Assembly (NCBI RefSeq): GCF_003574315.2
Contig: NZ_AP025739.1
Location: 2,046,001 to 2,110,000 of the forward strand
Length of the DNA stretch: 64,000 bases
Direction of reading: 5' to 3'
Source of the DNA: Capsulimonas corticalis
Lineage (GTDB): Bacteria > Armatimonadota > Armatimonadia > Armatimonadales > Capsulimonadaceae
The position numbers and the translations under genes were made by a program. The notes beneath the pieces are model-generated. The model saw only the letters and a program-made list of their open reading frames with translations, searched no databases and was not told the origin of the DNA. Shown in pieces: positions 3,869 to 45,202 of this stretch. Each line of letters starts with the position of its first letter. Position 1 is the first letter of the stretch.

Positions 3869-4060
3869 CTCATTAAGTTCCATTCACTCTCGACAAGAAT
3901 GTGTGAAGAGTGTTTTGGCGTTCGCAATATCAACTCCTCACGGTCATGTGACGAGTGAATGGACGGCAGTGACAAGCACCCCTTTTCCCCCGCGAAGCGG
4001 CTTGCTGGGAAAAAGGGGAAAAGCGCTTTAGCGCCGGGGGAATAGGGATGAATGGGGACC
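3869..4060. repeat. Remainder of the palindromic repeat: end of left arm, loop, right arm
   Basis: Bases 3869-3889 finish the left arm (CATTCACTC), 3890-3951 form the loop and 3952-4060 form the right arm. The right arm is the near-complement of 2440-2526 plus the left-arm remainder. There are no convincing coding frames. It lies between the IS element and the end of the dienelactone hydrolase gene, and on the minus strand it could also act as a terminator for that gene because of its stable stem. Confidence 0.78.
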
Positions 4061-36851: not shown

Positions 36852-37058
36852 GGCGGACATTCCTAAAGTGTCGGCGCTTGAGCGCGCCAAGTCTTATTGT
36901 CGGTCGCAGGGCGGCAAAGCTGGAATCGGGCTCAAGGTTACAGTGGGTTTACAGTGCCGCGCGGGGAGCTCAAATCCGGTTCATGGAGACCAGGCGCCGG
37001 GTAAGTCCAACACACGACTGCTCCGAAAGTGAGCGGCCGGAAGGGAGGAAAGCCCATC

Positions 37059-37844
37059 ATGGACTTTCATGAAATCGTAAACAACCCGGTGAACCGTCGA
37101 ACCTTTTTGACCCGAATGGCCGCCGCAGGACTGGGTGTGGCCGCCATGGGACTGATGCCGGAGGCCGCGCACGCTTCGGGCCGCCCGGTGCTGACATTGG
37201 TCAACGTTCCCGAGAACTCGCACTTTCCCGGCATCCCGGGCAAGAACCTGCGCAACAAGACACTGAACTATGCGCTGACGCTGGAAATCCTGGAGGCGGA
37301 TATCTACCGGCAAGGACTGAACCTCGCCGCCGGAAAACCGCTGGACACGCCGCTGCCCGATGATGTTTCCGGCTACGCGCTGTCGATTCCCGCCGGACAG
37401 GTCGCGCATCCCGCGCTCGGATTTCAGCTGCTCCAGCAGTTCGCGCCGGTCGAGGCCGCGCACCGGGACTACCTCCACGCCGCGATCCAGTCGCTGGGCG
37501 ACACGCCGGTCTCGCCGAACCCTGGCGGCTACAAAGCCCCCTTCGGCGGCGATCTGGCTTCGGTCCTCGCCGTGATCCGCACACTGGAAGAGACGGGCGT
37601 TCGCGCCTATCTGGGCGCCGCGCAGTTCATTGGCGACAAAACGCTGACGCAGGCCGGCGCGAGCATCTACTCGACCGAGGCGCGCCATTCGGCGGCGATC
37701 AATTACGCCCTGGGACTGGAAGCCGGCCCCGCCAAGCAGCGTCTGGACAGCCAGGCGGTGATTCACCAGAATGGCGATAATAACTTTGAGTATTGGCTGA
37801 CCCCGGAACAGGTGATCGCCAAGGCGAAGCCGTTCTTTGCATAG
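37059..37844 (+). CDS. Tat-exported ferritin-like domain protein 1
   Basis: A 261-aa protein with a twin-arginine signal (VNRRTFLTRMAAAGLGVAAM, R13-R14) and a ferritin-like four-helix domain. Candidate di-iron ligands are present in every helix: LEILEADIY, VEAAHRDYL (E-x-x-H), LEETGVRAY and TEARHSAAI (E-x-x-H). Export in folded form by Tat fits a metal cofactor loaded in the cytoplasm. GGAGGAAAG precedes the ATG. It is the first of three genes that look like one operon. Whether it oxidises iron, stores it or detoxifies peroxides cannot be told. Confidence 0.85.
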   Translation: MDFHEIVNNPVNRRTFLTRMAAAGLGVAAMGLMPEAAHASGRPVLTLVNVPENSHFPGIPGKNLRNKTLNYALTLEILEADIYRQGLNLAAGKPLDTPLPDDVSGYALSIPAGQVAHPALGFQLLQQFAPVEAAHRDYLHAAIQSLGDTPVSPNPGGYKAPFGGDLASVLAVIRTLEETGVRAYLGAAQFIGDKTLTQAGASIYSTEARHSAAINYALGLEAGPAKQRLDSQAVIHQNGDNNFEYWLTPEQVIAKAKPFFA

Positions 37845-37907
37845 ATTTGCGCCGCGTCGCCTTCGGCCCAATAGGCCGAAGTCTGAGACGCGCGAAAGGA
37901 ATTGACC

Positions 37908-38654
37908 ATGAACCACGAACCGATTGCCCATACGGAGCGTCGAGAATTTTTGGGATCGGCCGCGCGGACGGCGGCGATCGTGGCCGGAGCTACGCTGCTC
38001 GGCCCAAGCCTCGTCCGCGCCGCAGCGCCGCTGCAATATAAAGACATCTATCGCCCCAAGATTCTCAATTTGCCGGGCGGCCTGAAGGCTGGAGACGACA
38101 TCCAGGTCCTGAACTACGCCCTGACTCTGGAGGATTTAGAATCGGACCTCTACATCCAGGCCGTGCAGCGCCTGACGATGGGCGGGACCAACAAGCTCGG
38201 CAAGCAGATCCCCGGTCTGGGCGTCAATGATATGGAGCCGGACGTCAAGTACTTGAAAATCTTCGCCGAAGTCGAGGCGGAGCATCGCGACTTCCTGCGC
38301 GGCTCGCTCAATAGCCTGTTTCACGGGATCGCCGTGAGTCCTTACAAATACGATTTCGGCATCGAGACTAAGTCGCGAGAGGAAGTGCTGGATCTGGTGC
38401 TGACGGCGGAAGCGCTCGGAACGGCGGCTTATCTGGGCGCGGTCCCGTACCTGAAGACACGCCTCTTCATCACGGCGGCGGCGGCGATCCAGGGCACGGA
38501 AGCGCGCCACACGGCGACGCTGACTCTGGTGCAAAACCAGCTGTTCGGCGGCTCCAAACCCAGCTCGCCCCTCGCTTCGGACAACCATGGGATCGATATG
38601 CCGATGGATCCGGACGCCGTGCTGGCGAAGGTCTCGCCATATATCGTCCGATAA
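37908..38654 (+). CDS. Tat-exported ferritin-like domain protein 2
   Basis: A 248-aa relative of the preceding protein with signal TERREFLGSAARTAAIVAG (R11-R12). Its helices carry LEDLESDLY, VEAEHRDFL, TAEALGTAAY and TEARHTATL, matching the ligand positions in protein 1. The two are clearly paralogous but distant, suggesting a heteromeric assembly rather than a recent duplication. AAAGGA lies seven bases before the ATG at 37908. The spacing to the first gene is 63 bases. Confidence 0.85.
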   Translation: MNHEPIAHTERREFLGSAARTAAIVAGATLLGPSLVRAAAPLQYKDIYRPKILNLPGGLKAGDDIQVLNYALTLEDLESDLYIQAVQRLTMGGTNKLGKQIPGLGVNDMEPDVKYLKIFAEVEAEHRDFLRGSLNSLFHGIAVSPYKYDFGIETKSREEVLDLVLTAEALGTAAYLGAVPYLKTRLFITAAAAIQGTEARHTATLTLVQNQLFGGSKPSSPLASDNHGIDMPMDPDAVLAKVSPYIVR

Positions 38655-38676
38655 TCGCCGCCGAAAGGATCAAACG

Positions 38677-39123
38677 ATGAAAAAGATACAGTGGACCCTC
38701 GCCGCCGTCGCCCTCGCGGCGCTCGCCGGCAATCTCGCGCCGGCCGCCCACGCGCAGGACGGCGATGGCTGGACCGTCACGAAGGCGCTCCAGTCGGAAA
38801 AGCTCGACTACAGCAAACTCAACAATTCGACCTACGACTACGCCGACATCGCGACCGCCAAAGGGAATCACTACTCCGACAACCAGGTCGCGACGATGCT
38901 GAAGATCGCGAAACTTTCGGGCCAAAGGTTCAAGGATGTCTTCTGGGCGCTCAACCGGGGCGAGACGTTCGCGATGCTCGCCGGGAAGTACAATATCCCT
39001 TACTCCCGTCTGCGCCATGTCGACGCGGAGAAGGACGAGATCGCGGCGTTCGAATCCGCGTATCTCGCGACAGGGAAAACGAGCGCGCGGCGTGATAAGA
39101 TCGATGCGATTTTGATGAAATAG
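38677..39123 (+). CDS. Small secreted protein of the ferritin-like operon
   Basis: A 148-aa protein with an N-terminal signal peptide (WTLAAVALAALAGNLAPAAHA) and a helical mature part (NHYSDNQVATMLKIAKLSGQRFKDVFWALNRGETFAMLAGKY). I recognise no domain; the pattern LAGKYNIPYSRLRHV has a LysM-like or helix-turn-helix look but is not convincing. GAAAGGA precedes the ATG at 38677, 22 bases after the previous stop. It likely works with the two ferritin-like proteins outside the cytoplasm. Confidence 0.7.
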   Translation: MKKIQWTLAAVALAALAGNLAPAAHAQDGDGWTVTKALQSEKLDYSKLNNSTYDYADIATAKGNHYSDNQVATMLKIAKLSGQRFKDVFWALNRGETFAMLAGKYNIPYSRLRHVDAEKDEIAAFESAYLATGKTSARRDKIDAILMK

Positions 39124-39164
39124 GATGTCCCGGCCCCATTCACAAGAGTCGGTTTTCGCGTACT

Positions 39165-39405
39165 GGGCAATAAATTAGCCAGCTGGGGGCGCTTCGCATT
39201 AAGGACCCCGCAATAAATTACGGGGCTGGGGGCGCTTCGCGCCGACCGTCCGTGCCGGACGGAAGAGTCTCTACGCCTGCGATCCTTGGTCTTCCGTCCG
39301 GGACGGTGGGCGCCCTTTGGGCACTGGTTGCGAAGCAACCCCCAGCCCCGTACTTCAGTGCGGGGTTCAATGCGCTCGCTGTAGCCCCGTAATTTATTGT
39401 GGGGT
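39165..39405. repeat. Complex palindromic repeat with internal 43-bp direct repeat
   Basis: The non-coding interval between the ferritin-like operon and the GH43 gene. Two direct copies of GCAATAAATTA-N4-GCTGGGGGCGCTTCGC lie 43 bases apart (39167 and 39210). The second copy pairs with GCGAAGCAACCCCCAGCCCC (39330-39349), and its outer part CCCCGCAATAAATTACGGGG pairs with CCCCGTAATTTATTGTGGGG (39385-39404). At the centre stands ACCGTCCGTGCCGGACGGA (39245-39263), pairing with TCTTCCGTCCGGGACGGT. The whole can fold into a long branched hairpin. No coding frame is convincing. Confidence 0.82.
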
Positions 39406-39415
39406 GGGGGAAAAC

Positions 39416-41161
39416 CTACTCCGAAACTACATCAGTCCCCAAAGTGACTCCACTGTCGTTAAACGTGTCCACCGTGAAGAAGTAAGAAACGCCGACGTTG
39501 AGCGTGTGGATGCTGAGCGTGCTGGCGCCGTAGACCTGATAGTTGCTGAAGAGTTTGTCCTTGGCGACGCCATAGCGGACGATATAACCGTCCGCGCCGG
39601 CGACGGGCTTCCAGGAAATCGTGGCCTGGCGCCCGTCCGCGGCGTCTCGCTTGACCTGGACGCCTTCGGGCTTTTGGGGCGCCTTCCCCAGACCGCTGCC
39701 GAAGAGGCGCAGGCCGCTGATTGAGAATTTGGCGCCGCCTGGGGTGTGCGTATTGGTGATTCGGGCGTAGCGGGCCGTGACGGGTTTCTCCAGCGGGATG
39801 TAGTCGTGCGGCGAATCGCGCTTCTCGACGCTGCGGTCTACAATGGTCGTCCAGGTCTTGCCGTCGGCGCTCACGTCGAGTTTATAGCCGTAGCCGTCCT
39901 GAAGCAGGCCAAGCTGCGTGGAGCCTTCATCGGCGAAGTTGATCTGGGCGGCGTCGATGCGGCACGATTTTCCAAGATCGACCTGAAGCCATTCGCCCGG
40001 ATCGCCCGTTTTGGCCGACCACCAGGTGCGCATGTCTTCGTCAAACGCCGCTTCGATCGGATGCGCGTCAAGCGTGGAGGACGCCGTCGCCGTCTTTTGA
40101 TAATCTAAGAGCATCCAGCCGGTCAGGTTGCCTTTGGACGGGTCTTTGACGACGCCTGGGGCATACTGGGGGTAGTCGCCGAGGTAAGTGTCGCAGACCA
40201 TCTGGCCGTCGCGGGTAAACCAGGCGGGGAAGACGCCGAGACGGCGCTCGAACATATGGCGAATGGAGATCGTCATGGTCGCGATATGCCAATATCGCCC
40301 GCCGAGGTCCTGAAACGTCGAGCTGTGGCCCGCGCCGGTCGCGAAGCCCGTGGGTTTGAGCGAGAAAGGGCTGTAGGGCGCATAAGTGAATGGCCCGAGA
40401 GGATGGTCGCCGACATAAACGCCGTCGTTGTAGGATTTGTACTGGGTTCCGGGGGCGGAATACTGAAGGTAGTATTTGCCGTCGTGTTTGGTCATCCAGG
40501 AGCCTTCGATCCAGGCGCCGGAATCTTTGTAGGGCGGGGTGTCGGTCGGCTCGGCCGGGATCTCCCCGCCGTGTTTGGGCGTGACGCCCGCGAAAAACGG
40601 GATCCGCGCCGTGAGCGGCTTGAAGCCGTTCTTGGGGTCCAGCTCCTGACCACCGATGGGGTCCTTGTCGCTGCATCCGCTGTAGAGGTAAACGCGTCCG
40701 TCGTCGTCCCGGAACAGGGCTGGATCGCCCTGATTTTGCGTGTCGCTGACGAGCTTCCATTGGCCTTTGCCGGGATCGTCGCTTTCGTAGATGCCCGCGC
40801 CGCCGACGGTCCAGTACATCTTGCCGCCGATCTCCATCACGGTGGGCGCGTAGTTGTCGATCGGCAGCCCCGCCGGCGTCACGAACGTCCAGTGAACAAA
40901 GTCTTTGGAGCGCCAGTATCCCAGGCTTTTGGAAGGGAACAGCCAGTATTCGCCCTGATAAACGATCATCGTCGGATCGGCCGCTTCCCGCCGGCTGGGA
41001 TCTTCGGCTTGAAATCGATAGGGAAGATCCATCGGATTGCAGATGGTCGGCGCTCGGCCGGCGGCGAACGCCGGCGCCGCATGGAATAGCAATGGGAGCG
41101 AAGGGGCAAAAAGGGTGACAAGTGAGAGACAGGTCCGCGCAGACTTGAATTTCGTTTTCAT
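39416..41161 (-). CDS. Secreted GH43-family glycosidase with F5/8C and Fn3-like domains
   Basis: A 581-aa exported enzyme. The signal peptide ends at AFAAG. The five-bladed beta-propeller begins with the catalytic-base region EAADPTMIVYQGEYWLF (D62) and includes DSGAWIEGSWMTKHDGKYYLQYS, where E is the likely general acid. It is followed from about residue 350 by a discoidin-like carbohydrate-binding domain (ATASSTLDAHPIEAAFDEDM, WLQVDLGKSCRIDAAQI, YARITNT) and a C-terminal fibronectin-III-like domain (GVQVKRDAADGRQATISWKPV). GH43 enzymes attack arabinans, xylans or galactans. It diverges from another carbohydrate-active gene with a shared operator-like palindrome between. Confidence 0.86.
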   Translation of the reverse strand: MKTKFKSARTCLSLVTLFAPSLPLLFHAAPAFAAGRAPTICNPMDLPYRFQAEDPSRREAADPTMIVYQGEYWLFPSKSLGYWRSKDFVHWTFVTPAGLPIDNYAPTVMEIGGKMYWTVGGAGIYESDDPGKGQWKLVSDTQNQGDPALFRDDDGRVYLYSGCSDKDPIGGQELDPKNGFKPLTARIPFFAGVTPKHGGEIPAEPTDTPPYKDSGAWIEGSWMTKHDGKYYLQYSAPGTQYKSYNDGVYVGDHPLGPFTYAPYSPFSLKPTGFATGAGHSSTFQDLGGRYWHIATMTISIRHMFERRLGVFPAWFTRDGQMVCDTYLGDYPQYAPGVVKDPSKGNLTGWMLLDYQKTATASSTLDAHPIEAAFDEDMRTWWSAKTGDPGEWLQVDLGKSCRIDAAQINFADEGSTQLGLLQDGYGYKLDVSADGKTWTTIVDRSVEKRDSPHDYIPLEKPVTARYARITNTHTPGGAKFSISGLRLFGSGLGKAPQKPEGVQVKRDAADGRQATISWKPVAGADGYIVRYGVAKDKLFSNYQVYGASTLSIHTLNVGVSYFFTVDTFNDSGVTLGTDVVSE

Positions 41162-41199
41162 AACCCTAGCATACCATGAGTATTTGAATTTTTAATAAT

Positions 41200-41213
41200 T
41201 TACACCAGTGTAA
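41200..41213. promoter_or_regulatory. Operator-like palindrome TTACAC-CA-GTGTAA
   Basis: Perfect six-base arms around a two-base centre, extended by imperfect AT-rich arms (ATTTTTAAT to the left, ATTAAAAAT to the right). It lies between the divergent GH43 and six-hairpin glycosidase genes, 38 bases before the GH43 start, and so could control both. Confidence 0.6.
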
Positions 41214-41243
41214 TATGAAAATTAAAAATCGCGCCATTCTTTC

Positions 41244-41273
41244 TTGACACTCAAGGGAAGCGTCTGCTAAGAT
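41244..41273 (+). promoter_or_regulatory. Promoter of the six-hairpin glycosidase-like gene
   Basis: TTGACA (41244-41249), 18 bases, TAAGAT (41268-41273). The leader to the GTG start is about 45 bases. Confidence 0.65.
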
Positions 41274-41324
41274 TGAGAAAATACTGGATTTCAAATGGAT
41301 TGAAAACGGATTGGTGATGAAGTT

Positions 41325-43496
41325 GTGAATCGGCGATCATTTGTCAAGCTTATGGGAGCCGCCGCGCTTCTCCATTCGGCTTCCTACGGCGCCGGCAAAG
41401 CCGACGCCGCTAAGAACGGGAAGATCGATCGGAAGGCGCTGGTCGATCGGCATAAGATTGCGCTCGCCCGGCCGGATGCGATGACGCCGCTGACGGTCGG
41501 CAACGGCGAATTTGCATTTACCGCCGACATTACGGGGCTGCAGACCTTTCCGGACTTTCATGGAAATGGGATGTTGTTGCAGACGATGGCGCAGTGGGCG
41601 TGGCATACGACCCCCGATGATCATCGCTATCATCTTTCCGACACGTTCAACCCGTACGACAGCCATGGCCGCTCCGTGCCTTACCCGAGCGGCGACGAAA
41701 ACGGCGGCGGGTTTGGCGACGGCGGACCGGCGGCGCAGTGGCTGAACAGCAATCCCCATAAGTTCGATCTTGGCCGCATCGGCCTTCTCCTGCCGTCGAT
41801 CGATCAGCGGGCGGTGACAATCGACGATATCACGGAGATCGTCCAGGAGCTCGATCTCTGGAGCGGGCTGCTGTCGAGCCGTTTTCGCCTCGCCGGCCAG
41901 CCGGTCCTGGTGGAAACGGCGGCGCATCCCACGCTGGATGTCGTGGCGGCGCGCATTACCTCTCCGCTGGTCCGCGAGGGAGCGCTTGGCGCGCGGCTGC
42001 AATTTTCCTACGCGCCGCCCGACTGGATGCATCCCAGCGATTGGGGGCAGCCCGACCGCCACACGACCACGGTGAGCGTCGCCAAGGACGAATACCGGTT
42101 TGCCCGCCGGCTGGACGGCGTCACCCAATATTCCGCGCGCGCCGCCGTTTCGCCGGGAAGCGATCATCGGCAAATCTCGACGCACGAACATACGTGGACG
42201 GCGAAGGGGCAGCCGTCGCTCGATCTGGTCATCGCCTTTGGGCCGGAGGCCATGGAGAAAACGCATGGGAGCGTTCCGTCGTTCGATCAAGTCCGCCAGG
42301 ACGCCATGCGTCATTGGAAGACTTTCTGGTCAACGGGCGGCGCCATCGACCTTTCCGAGAGCCGGGACAGCCGCTGGAAGGAGCTGGAGCGGCGCATCGT
42401 GCTTTCGCAGTATCAAACGGCTGTCAACAGCGCTGGCTCGCTGCCGCCGCAGGAGACCGGTCTCGTTCAGAACAGTTGGTACGGCAAGTTCCACCATGAG
42501 ATGCACTGGTGGCACGCCGCGCATTTCCCGCAATGGGGGCGCGAGGCGCTCTTGATGCGAAGTTTGGACTACTACCGCCGCATCCTGCCGGTCGCGCGCG
42601 AAACCGCTCAGCGCATCGGCTGCCGGGGCGCGCGCTGGCCGAAAATGGTGGGGCCGGAGGGGCGCGAAAGTCCCAACCGCATTAACCCCTTTTTGACCTG
42701 GCAGCAGCCGCATCCGATCCATTTCGCCGAGCTGATTTATCAGGCGAAGCCGACAGAAGAGACGCTGCAATTTTTCAAGGAGATCGTGCTGGAAAGCGCG
42801 GAGTTTATGGCGTCCTTTCCGTGGTGGAACGCGGAGCGCGGCTGCTATGAGCTGGGGGCGCCGATTGTCGCGCCCTATGAGAACAATTACAACGACCGGC
42901 GCGCGTCGAAAAACCCAACCTTCGATCTTACCTACTGGTCGTGGGCGCTGGGCGTCGCCCAGCAATGGCGTGAGCGCCTCGGCATGGCCCGCTCCCAGGA
43001 GTGGGACCATGTCCGGCAAAACTTCGCGCCATTGACCGTCCGCGACGGTGTCTACCGGGAGATCGAGCAGATCGACGCCGGAATTGGCGGGCACCCAACG
43101 ATGCTGGGCGCTTTGGGCGTTGTCCCGCACACGCCGCTCGTGGATCGCCCGACCATGCAGCGCACATTGGATTTCGTGCTGACAAAGTGGCCGCGCGGCG
43201 AGACCTGGGGATGGGATTATCCGATGATGGCGATGACGGCCGCGCGTCTCGGCCGGCCAGACCAGGCCATTGAAGCGCTGTTTATCGACACGCCCAAGAA
43301 CGTGTATCTCGCCAACGGCCACAACTACCAGCAGTCCATCCTGCCGCTGTATCTGCCCGGCAACGGCGGCCTGCTCTTCGCCACGGCGATGATGGCCGCC
43401 GGCTGGAAGGGAGCGCCCCCGGGGCACGCGCCCGGCTTTCCGACGGAAGACCAGGGCTGGACGGTACGCTGGGAAGGCTTGCGACCGGCGCTTTGA
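41325..43496 (+). CDS. Tat-exported six-hairpin glycosidase-like protein
   Basis: A 723-aa protein with a twin-arginine signal (MNRRSFVKLMGAAALLHS) starting at a GTG. The body contains LTVGNGEFAFTADITGLQTFP, then a beta-sandwich-like N-terminal part and a helical (alpha/alpha)6-barrel-like part with EMHWWHAAHFPQWGREALL, ARWPKMVGPEGRESPNRINPF and PWWNAERGCYELGAPIVAPYE. The order of domains and the GNG motif resemble GH65/GH95-type enzymes. Acid candidates lie in these blocks, but I cannot assign a specific family or substrate. It is divergently arranged with a GH43 gene, suggesting joint use of a plant or microbial polysaccharide. Confidence 0.7.
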   Translation: MNRRSFVKLMGAAALLHSASYGAGKADAAKNGKIDRKALVDRHKIALARPDAMTPLTVGNGEFAFTADITGLQTFPDFHGNGMLLQTMAQWAWHTTPDDHRYHLSDTFNPYDSHGRSVPYPSGDENGGGFGDGGPAAQWLNSNPHKFDLGRIGLLLPSIDQRAVTIDDITEIVQELDLWSGLLSSRFRLAGQPVLVETAAHPTLDVVAARITSPLVREGALGARLQFSYAPPDWMHPSDWGQPDRHTTTVSVAKDEYRFARRLDGVTQYSARAAVSPGSDHRQISTHEHTWTAKGQPSLDLVIAFGPEAMEKTHGSVPSFDQVRQDAMRHWKTFWSTGGAIDLSESRDSRWKELERRIVLSQYQTAVNSAGSLPPQETGLVQNSWYGKFHHEMHWWHAAHFPQWGREALLMRSLDYYRRILPVARETAQRIGCRGARWPKMVGPEGRESPNRINPFLTWQQPHPIHFAELIYQAKPTEETLQFFKEIVLESAEFMASFPWWNAERGCYELGAPIVAPYENNYNDRRASKNPTFDLTYWSWALGVAQQWRERLGMARSQEWDHVRQNFAPLTVRDGVYREIEQIDAGIGGHPTMLGALGVVPHTPLVDRPTMQRTLDFVLTKWPRGETWGWDYPMMAMTAARLGRPDQAIEALFIDTPKNVYLANGHNYQQSILPLYLPGNGGLLFATAMMAAGWKGAPPGHAPGFPTEDQGWTVRWEGLRPAL

Positions 43497-43527
43497 AGAT
43501 GGAAGATCGGCCTCGGATGCATTGGAA

Positions 43528-43685
43528 CCCGGTTATGAAACCCGGGCCTGGGAGCGCAAGGCGCTAACCGTCCGTGCCGGACGGAGGATATTTGTCATCG
43601 ACCACCGGCATTTGCGTCCGGCGCCGGGTACCCCCTGGGTGGTTAGCGGCTCTGGCCGCTCCCAGACCCGGGTTTCATAACCGGG
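43528..43685. repeat. Long palindromic repeat with shared core motif
   Basis: Arms 43528-43569 and 43641-43685 are near-perfect complements: CCCGGTTATGAAACCCGGG, then CTGGGAGCG and CGCTAACC. The loop holds ACCGTCCGTGCCGGACGGA (43567-43585), identical to the core of the repeat at 39.2 kb. Non-coding, between the convergent glycosidase-like and 5'-nucleotidase-like genes, where it can also act as a terminator in both directions. Confidence 0.85.
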
Positions 43686-43747
43686 GAGCGTATGCGTATG
43701 CGGCTACGAAAATCCTATCCTATCAACCCATCGCCGCATATTTCATC

Positions 43748-45202
43748 TCATTTGCTCAGAAAATCCCGGACTGTGTCCCGGATGTCCTTCCCCGTATCCG
43801 TCAAGCTCGCCGCCGGAACGCCGTATTCGGAAGTCGCCTCGTAATCCACGAAGGCGACCGCGACGGGGGCGTCGCCGGCGGGAATCTCTCCCGAAATGAT
43901 GCTGCCTGGCTTTTTGACGATCAGCTTGCGGATTTCGTCTGGCGTCAGCGTCGCCGTTGAGACATGGTTGGCGAAGGGCATCGCGGAGTAGAGATCGTAG
44001 TAGGAGACGGTACGCCTATGGAATGCGCCAAACATGCCGCCGCCAGATGGGTTGAGCGCGACTGACGCGCCCGTGGCTCGGCGCATGGCGTCGACGAGAA
44101 CTTGTGTCGTGATTCGTTGCCGCTCCTCCGGCGTGGCGCCGGCTTTGGGCAGCGTCCCGGCGTCTTTGAGGAACGGCGCCGTGTAGGGCGCGATGGCGGC
44201 CGCGACATCCGGCGCGTCGGAAATCCCCGTTTCGATGGGGATCATCTCATCGTGATAGGTTTTGAGAGTCCAGCCCTTCGCGCCGCGCAGAAACGTCAGG
44301 TCGAAGCGGCCGAGGTTCACGCCGAACTCGCCGTCCTGGACGATCGGCGTGACGACGCCGTCCGTATTGACGGCGGCCAGCGGCGTGTAGAGAAATGTGT
44401 GTGAATGGCCGCCGACAATGGCGTCCAGGCCCGACGTTCCCTGCGCCAGCAGCATGTCCTGATCGGCGCCGATGTGCGTGAGGGCGATGAGGATATCGCA
44501 ATCCCGCCGCGCCTTCGGGATCCATTCTTTCGCGGCCTCGATGGGGTCGGTAAACACGAAGCCCTTTGTCTGCGGATATTTCGCCGACGTCTTCGTCGTC
44601 AGCCCCAGAAACCCGACCCGCACGCCGCTCCACTGCCGCACGACATACGGCTGCACACCCTCCAGCAGTCCCCCGTCGCTCGCCCGCACATTGGCGCAAA
44701 CCCACGGAAACCGCGCGCGCTTGATCACGCGCCGCAGCGCCGTCTGCGCTCCGTCGTAATCCTGCTCCTGCGTGGCGTCCCGCCCCTTGAACTCATTGTT
44801 GCCGATCGCCGCCAGCTCGTATCCCACCGCGTTCATCGCTTCAATATCCGCGACGCCTTCATACGCGTTGGAGAGCGGACCGCGCGTGAACGTATCCCCG
44901 GCGTCTACTAAAAGCGTCGGATTATGAATCTTTGCGCGCAGACGGCGAATCAGCGTCGCCCGCCGCGCCGCCCCGCCGCGCGACGGATTCTCCTCCGGAC
45001 TGCGCCCGGCTTCCGTGTACGGGAACGGCAGGATATGCCCGTGCAGATCGTTCGTATGCAGCAGCGTCAGCGTGAACGAATCCGGCTGGGGCGGGGCGAC
45101 GGGAAACGACGTGGACGCCGGCAAGTCCGACGGCGCGGCGTGAATGGCCGGCGCGGCCAGCGTCAATACGGCCAGCAGCAGCGCGATGGGTTTTCGGATC
45201 AT
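43748..45202 (-). CDS. Secreted 5'-nucleotidase/UshA-like protein with altered active site
   Basis: A 484-aa protein with a signal peptide (IALLLAVLTLAAPAIHA), an N-terminal metallophosphoesterase domain and a C-terminal 5'-nucleotidase domain. Metal motifs are present: HTNDLHGH (49-56), DAGDTF (100-105), LTHIG and VGGHSH. The usual GNHEFD motif, which carries the catalytic His-Asp dyad (H117 and D120 in E. coli UshA), here reads GNNEFK (134-139), so both dyad residues are changed. The C-terminal substrate domain keeps NPSGGGMFGAFHRRTVSYYDLYSAMPF. It may be weakly active, inactive or specific for another phosphoester. The gene lies 17 bases downstream of mgsA, with which it may be co-transcribed. 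Confidence 0.85.
   Translation of the reverse strand: MIRKPIALLLAVLTLAAPAIHAAPSDLPASTSFPVAPPQPDSFTLTLLHTNDLHGHILPFPYTEAGRSPEENPSRGGAARRATLIRRLRAKIHNPTLLVDAGDTFTRGPLSNAYEGVADIEAMNAVGYELAAIGNNEFKGRDATQEQDYDGAQTALRRVIKRARFPWVCANVRASDGGLLEGVQPYVVRQWSGVRVGFLGLTTKTSAKYPQTKGFVFTDPIEAAKEWIPKARRDCDILIALTHIGADQDMLLAQGTSGLDAIVGGHSHTFLYTPLAAVNTDGVVTPIVQDGEFGVNLGRFDLTFLRGAKGWTLKTYHDEMIPIETGISDAPDVAAAIAPYTAPFLKDAGTLPKAGATPEERQRITTQVLVDAMRRATGASVALNPSGGGMFGAFHRRTVSYYDLYSAMPFANHVSTATLTPDEIRKLIVKKPGSIISGEIPAGDAPVAVAFVDYEATSEYGVPAASLTDTGKDIRDTVRDFLSK

Follow-up and report, generated by a model that had tools for sequence, protein, structure and literature searches.

Two large intergenic palindromes, at 39.2 and 43.57 kb of the 64,000-nucleotide stretch of Capsulimonas corticalis DNA analyzed here (the window, genome positions 2046001-2110000), carry the same 19-base core, ACCGTCCGTGCCGGACGGA, inside arms that differ from each other. 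The initial annotation took this core for a site recognized by a protein or transposase, comparable with REP/RAYT systems, or for a modular RNA. What kind of element the palindromes are, and what acts on them, is the question addressed here. Both copies are located on the + strand in palindromic intergenic DNA as described, within the inverted repeats I4, I6, and I11, and no further copy with ≤3 mismatches is found in the window, where shuffles expect 0.02. In the whole genome (G000, one contig of 7,645,051 bases), the search proposed by the annotation recovers 41 exact copies, together with the arms at their flanks, so the core is not confined to these two copies. A pattern search allowing ≤2 mismatches gives 78 matches, and the reversed pattern, used as a control over the whole genome, gives none.

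The 19-mer is a hairpin by itself (CCGTCCG-TGC-CGGACGG) and forms the innermost of three hairpins, hp1-hp2-hp3, within an arm of ~62 nt. Folding of a single arm as DNA gives these three hairpins for the left arms of both window elements. The arms fall into two subfamilies. The subfamily A arm (39.2 kb type) reads (A)CCCCG-cattgaaata-CGGGG / CTGGG / GGCGC-TTC-GCGCC / g / ACCGTCCGTGCCGGACGGA, and the subfamily B arm (43.6 kb type) reads CCCGGttatgaaacCCGGG / TCTGGG / AGCGGC-AAGA-GCCGCT / A / 19-mer. The arms differ, as the annotation stated, but they can still be aligned over 62 nt with 76% identity, and both have the same layout of three hairpins. The hp1 loop is of the TGAA/TAAA type (T[GA]AA), and the hp1 stem holds a conserved unpaired position, a mismatch or bulge, which is C-A in A and T-C in B. 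The CTGGG linker is the most conserved unpaired stretch of the arms. The stem of hp2 varies freely in sequence, while its self-pairing is always kept.

Covariance models of the A and B arms combined detect ~115 arms at 62 loci in the genome. At 46 of the 62 loci there is precisely one + arm and, after it, one − arm; the reversed order is found at only one locus. In these inverted pairs, hp1 is outermost and a spacer of 26-30 nt separates the two hp3 hairpins. Since they are based on pattern and covariance-model searches, the genome-wide counts are lower bounds. The parts of the two window elements are listed in Table 1 with the transposase genes and the sites compared between species.

Table 1 Positions of the window elements, the Y1 transposase genes, and the sites compared with the congener G002 (window coordinates for the elements, genome coordinates for the genes)
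Feature	Position	Strand	Content
Outer degenerate hp1+hp2 module	39167..39203	+	GCAATAAATTAGCCAGCTGGGGGCGCTTCGCATTAAGG, abuts element 1; repeat D17
Element 1 (subfamily A), left arm	39204..39266	+	R1 match 2085204-2085266, 90.8 bits; alignment A1
Element 1 left arm, parts			hp1 39206-39225; linker CTGGG 39226-39230; hp2 39231-39243; hp3 = 19-mer 39245-39263
Element 1, central spacer	39264..39292		A elements generally 28-30 nt
Element 1, right arm, rearranged	39290..39367	-	R1 match 2085290-2085367 (-), 52.7 bits
Element 1 right arm, parts			hp3 counterpart truncated; extra GGGCGCCCTTTGGGC hairpin; hp2 GGTTGC/GCAACC; hp1 39346-39365
Extra right-hand hp1 copy	39383..39405	-	AGCCCCGTAATTTATTGTGGGGT; inverted repeat I11
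Element 2 (subfamily B), left arm	43527..43588	+	R2 match 2089527-2089588, 87.8 bits
Element 2 left arm, parts			hp1 43528-43546; linker CCTGGG 43547-43552; hp2 43553-43565; hp3 = 19-mer 43567-43585
Element 2, right arm	43630..43686	-	R2 match 2089630-2089686 (-), 49.7 bits; inverted repeat I4
Element 2 right arm, parts			variant hp3 region GGCGCCGGGTACCCCCTGGGTGG; hp2 GCGGCTCTGGCCGC; hp1 43667-43685
Y1-A gene	2822412-2822852	+	perfect 50-nt inverted repeat of A arms
Y1-B gene	2171913-2172317	-	perfect 62-nt inverted repeat, two B arms
Y1_Tnp gene (L061)	G000:C1:448981-449376		no flanking inverted repeats
Y1_Tnp gene (L062)	G000:C1:440187-440582		no flanking inverted repeats
Site C389			A element kept in G000, paired changes within hp1
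Site C710			B element in G002, A element in G000
Site C200			G000 reduced to one hp1-like hairpin
Sites C3, C678, C100			element in G002, none in G000

The right-hand side of the window elements should be noted, since the annotation had the core pairing with a counterpart there. Neither window element has an intact counterpart (it is degenerate or rearranged), whereas many other copies in the genome do. The right-arm variant of element 1 recurs at L001, L028, L042, L049, L053, L056, and L057, and its outer hp1+hp2 module is found again beside other A elements. Two other structures were also recorded in the window. One is a perfect 17-bp hairpin with a TTGAAA centre at 896-933 (TAAGAGTCGCTGGCGGTTGAAACCGCCAGCGACTCTTA), directly after a stop codon, which may be a terminator or a solo hp1-like relic. 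The other is a long inverted repeat pair at 2442-2524 and 3976-4057 (51 and 46 nt, 82-89% complementary, ~1.45 kb apart).

The helices are supported by compensatory changes in both subfamilies. Among 28 A arms, 99.2% of the cells in the three helices are paired, with a covariation score of 0.262 against 0.064 for shuffled and 0.044 for the best slid alignments. The corresponding values for 25 B arms are 94.4%, 0.199, 0.045, and 0.037. Perfect hp2 stems are present in both arms of 21 of the 24 parsed elements, and in 17 of these 21 the left and right stems are unlike, for example AGCGC in one arm and AGATGC in the opposite arm of the same element. Since the two stems differ and yet each pairs with itself, it is the local hairpins that are kept and not the pairing across the arms, which rules out a long cruciform as the maintained structure. 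G-U exchanges are nearly absent among the covarying pairs (two one-sided cells in A and none in B). Covariation by itself does not discriminate between single-stranded DNA and RNA, but this scarcity of G-U intermediates mildly favors DNA as the folded molecule.

No Y1 gene is found within the 64-kb window. In the genome, a search with PF01797 gives five matches, one of which is a fragment, and multiple near-identical copies of a whole transposase unit are not among them. Two of the Y1 (HUH, IS200-like) genes, each single-copy, are flanked by the arms described above, one gene for each subfamily; the search for a RAYT-like gene that the annotation had suggested thus ends between these very arms. 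In Y1-A, a whole A palindrome lies upstream, and a lone inverted A arm follows immediately past the stop codon. The two proteins are 53% identical to each other. They possess the DH[IV]H and Y---Q--HH motifs, with WR in P0001 and WQ in P0002 at the W position, and HUH and the catalytic Tyr and Gln are invariant across 17 homologues. In the 147-aa protein, Pfam detects Y1_Tnp only and no HTH C-terminal domain. The predicted structure (pLDDT 85.5) best matches TnpA of IS608 and ISDra2 (E ~1e-8), while the match to TnpA-REP (4er8) is weaker (2.8e-5). Judging from the motifs and length compared with Table 1 of PMC6006769, the enzymes fit TnpA-Y1 subclass 1.2.

We placed flanks from G002 on G000 for the Y1-A locus and six other element sites. 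The Y1-A locus has the same neighboring genes in both species, while the other sites show the changes listed in Table 1. The orthologous G002 contig has neither of the window palindromes; its flanking genes are joined there, and the aligned blocks are 47 and 12 nt apart. The gene blocks adjoining the palindromes (window 36929-39434 and 41226-43760) are likewise missing at the orthologous place, indicating that the window palindromes sit at synteny breakpoints. In these alignments, the elements thus change their place or their type more rapidly than the locus of the transposase does. The flanking intergenic DNA is too diverged to show an empty site that is exact to the base, and an insertion is therefore not distinguishable from a deletion at single sites. 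The outer edge of the elements is sharp, and the flanks are near-random. No target-site duplications were seen at the elements by eye, as expected for Y1 enzymes.

The position of the elements relative to genes allows another reading, in which they are host RNA elements, either bidirectional terminators or mRNA-stabilizing hairpins, that are kept for gene expression and are only incidentally linked to a transposase. None of the 36 elements with sufficient sequence context lies inside a gene predicted by a home-made gene finder, and 33 are downstream of one gene or more; the neighboring genes are co-directional at 20 elements, convergent at 13, and divergent at three (convergent versus divergent, p ~0.01). 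Their single-strand folds are also very stable, with RNA fold z-scores of −6.4 and −6.9 for the window palindromes. However, REPs elsewhere are also mainly found at the 3' ends of genes (PMC3733652), so that the position suits a mobile repeat as well as a terminator. Two Y1 genes are perfectly flanked by the arms of these elements, the positions turn over between congeners, covarying pairs are almost free of G-U exchanges, and an Rfam scan of the window at the gathering score gives no match. We therefore regard this reading as very unlikely, though the elements may well act secondarily as terminators. Nothing was found in favor of the modular RNA that the annotation had put forward as an alternative.

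The elements could also be MITEs that arose by ordinary decay of an IS200-like, autonomous insertion sequence, one that is mobile as a unit and has the arms as its ends. The transposases score 82.4 and 62.2 bits with the NCBIfam IS200 model NF033573, above its cut-off of 55, and the Y1-B unit does resemble an element with identical 62-nt arms at its two ends. Resemblance to IS200/IS605 elements (IS608, ISDra2) and their derived MITEs/PATEs extends to the HUH/Y1 fold, the catalytic residues, and the hairpin ends. Contrarily, the ends of IS200/IS605 elements are single asymmetric hairpins (see PMC8266576), not symmetric inverted arms of three hairpins, and no tnpB is seen beside an arm-flanked transposase gene. 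Each transposase unit is present in one copy only, the two share no more than the identity given above, and Y1-A lies at a conserved locus, between the same neighbors in two species. An origin as IS200 decay products is accordingly unlikely.

We consider instead, with a probability of about 0.8, that the palindromes are REPIN/TIRtron-like non-autonomous mobile repeats of single-stranded DNA, mobilized by the two putative subclass 1.2 Y1 enzymes. This reading draws directly on the family and its architecture, the covariation, the association with transposase genes, and the positional turnover against the congener. The arrangement is closest to the TIRtrons/TIRYTs with dispersed TIR families described by Di Nocera 2013 (PMC3733652), and it works like a REPtron. 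As in TIRtrons, a tyrosine transposase gene lies between long, partly self-complementary terminal inverted repeats (here 62 and 50 nt), dispersed copies (here ~115 arms) are often dimers, and a single genome can hold several transposase/TIR pairs. Most published TIRYTs are TnpA-Y1 enzymes of subclass 2.1 that carry an HTH tail, and GGGGWSAS is common to many TIRs (PMC6006769). The enzymes here, by contrast, are short, have the Y---Q--HH motif, and fit subclass 1.2, and their arms follow one uniform plan of three hairpins in which hp3 is constant.

As in REPtrons (REP/REPIN with RAYT), a stationary low-copy Y1 gene is flanked by inverted hairpins that are dispersed genome-wide as many intergenic inverted doublets, with a mismatch or bulge in the recognized stem. 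Unlike REPtrons, the enzymes have Y---Q--HH instead of Y---NP, and each arm has three hairpins. With the NCBIfam model REP_Tyr_transpos (NF047646), they score 30.1 and 24.7 bits, below the cut-off of 80, and GT[AG]G occurs at no hairpin foot in the A and B arms, where the linkers are CTGGGG/CTGGGAG. These two observations rule out canonical RAYT/REP membership. The annotation's comparison with REP/RAYT therefore holds for the arm-flanked Y1 genes, one for each subfamily, and for elements that are mostly elsewhere in the congener, but not for the type of enzyme. REPs with a CGTC tag and without a dedicated transposase are also on record (PMC3733652); they are ruled out here, since CGTC lies inside the hp3 stem and is not an unpaired tag. 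For subclass 1.2, no REP partner is listed, and its members are mainly from Cyanobacteria and Bacteroidetes (PMC6006769; Quentin et al. 2018). The present enzymes resemble that subclass in their DHVH and YIENQKEHH / YIKNQKQHH motifs, their length (~148 aa), their low copy number, and the low identity between copies, and differ from its published members in belonging to Armatimonadota and in having dispersed cognate arms. Our literature search found no paper pairing Armatimonadetes with REP or a tyrosine transposase.

The 19-mer itself is narrowly distributed. The pattern ACCGTCCGTNCCGGACGGA with ≤1 mismatch gives eight matches in the same-genus genome G002 and no match in the five further genomes of this family that were searched. 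Among named genomes, the 19-mer is found only in Capsulimonas sp. RYN_270, a MAG of the same genus, apart from three single matches in unrelated bacteria, which we took as chance and not as wide spread. No relative is found in viral contigs. The arrangement of enzyme and arms reaches further. The G002 enzyme (88% identical) is flanked by arms with a variant core, ACCGTCCGTTCCGGACGGA. In G003, from another genus, a 48%-identical Y1 lies between its own arms (CGCCG-TGAA-CGGCG / GGCGC-TCC-GCGCC / GCGTCC-TGC-GGACGC) in the same layout as in Capsulimonas; dispersed copies are also present in that genome, which has 41 arm matches and four exact core pairs, and GTAG precedes hp2 in some of its arms. 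In a survey of the phylum, 24 of 39 homologues are flanked by inverted repeats of ≥14 nt, a length that is the 99th percentile for left and right flanks taken from different loci (mismatched-flank control). Other families (L202, L218, L222) again show hairpins with a TGAA loop and hairpins of the CGTCC...GGACG type. In Bacteroidota, both of the two relatives checked, a small sample, have inverted hairpin modules at the flanks of the gene, and the replicon holds more copies of them (three places in one record and eight in the other).

These flanks bear on a further possibility, that the palindromes are MITEs with long terminal inverted repeats that belong to an unrelated DDE transposase. The inverted-repeat architecture and the variable spacers would suit such an origin. 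However, each arm folds by itself, the left arm is unlike the right one, target-site duplications were not seen by eye, and Y1 genes in the whole phylum lie between cognate arms, which makes such an origin extremely improbable. For the preferred reading, it is slightly more likely than not that subclass 1.2 is a second REPIN-like system spanning the phylum. Its substrate would be a multi-hairpin arm with a TGAA-loop hp1, a variable self-pairing hp2, and a constant hp3, not a GTAG-tagged single hairpin. Since the GTAG tag was what earlier surveys searched for, such arms may have escaped them.

In the mechanism that we propose, the arms would fold as hairpins in single-stranded DNA during replication or repair, and a cognate Y1 dimer would bind the folded arms. 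The sharp element edge with near-random flanks suggests that the enzyme cuts there, at the foot of hp1. The arm pair would then be excised or copied into other intergenic sites. hp2 would be kept as a structure and not as a sequence, while hp3 may be a common docking or guide module. We infer Y1 binding, the cleavage site, single-strand transfer, and the direction and rate of transposition; cleavage, transfer, and the part played by each of the three hairpins are read from the anatomy of the arms and from the literature on IS608 and TnpA-REP (PMC8266576). The 19-mer is a candidate for the recognized site, and hp1 at the sharp edge of the element is as good a candidate.

Such arms would provide a candidate, testable DNA substrate for subclass 1.2, which was published without a REP partner, and would extend REP-like mobile repeats to Armatimonadota. 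One genome holds two cognate enzyme/arm pairs with a common hp3 and different hp1 and linker, a natural swap experiment on what a single-strand transposase reads. The self-pairing hp2, free in sequence, would be a clear example of selection that acts on the structure of DNA only.

Two observations on the distribution of the elements should be added. The region at 2.0-3.0 Mb of the genome holds 20 of the 62 element loci and both arm-flanked transposase genes (Poisson p ~3e-4 for one such interval), which may reflect local spread or an effect of replication position. At L013:772-1512 (genome 2349654-2350394), a B element contains a 30-bp unit, GCCTGGGAGGGCTTCGCCCTAACCGTCCGT, in ~24 near-identical tandem copies, and the expanded unit consists of the linker, hp2, and the 5' half of hp3.
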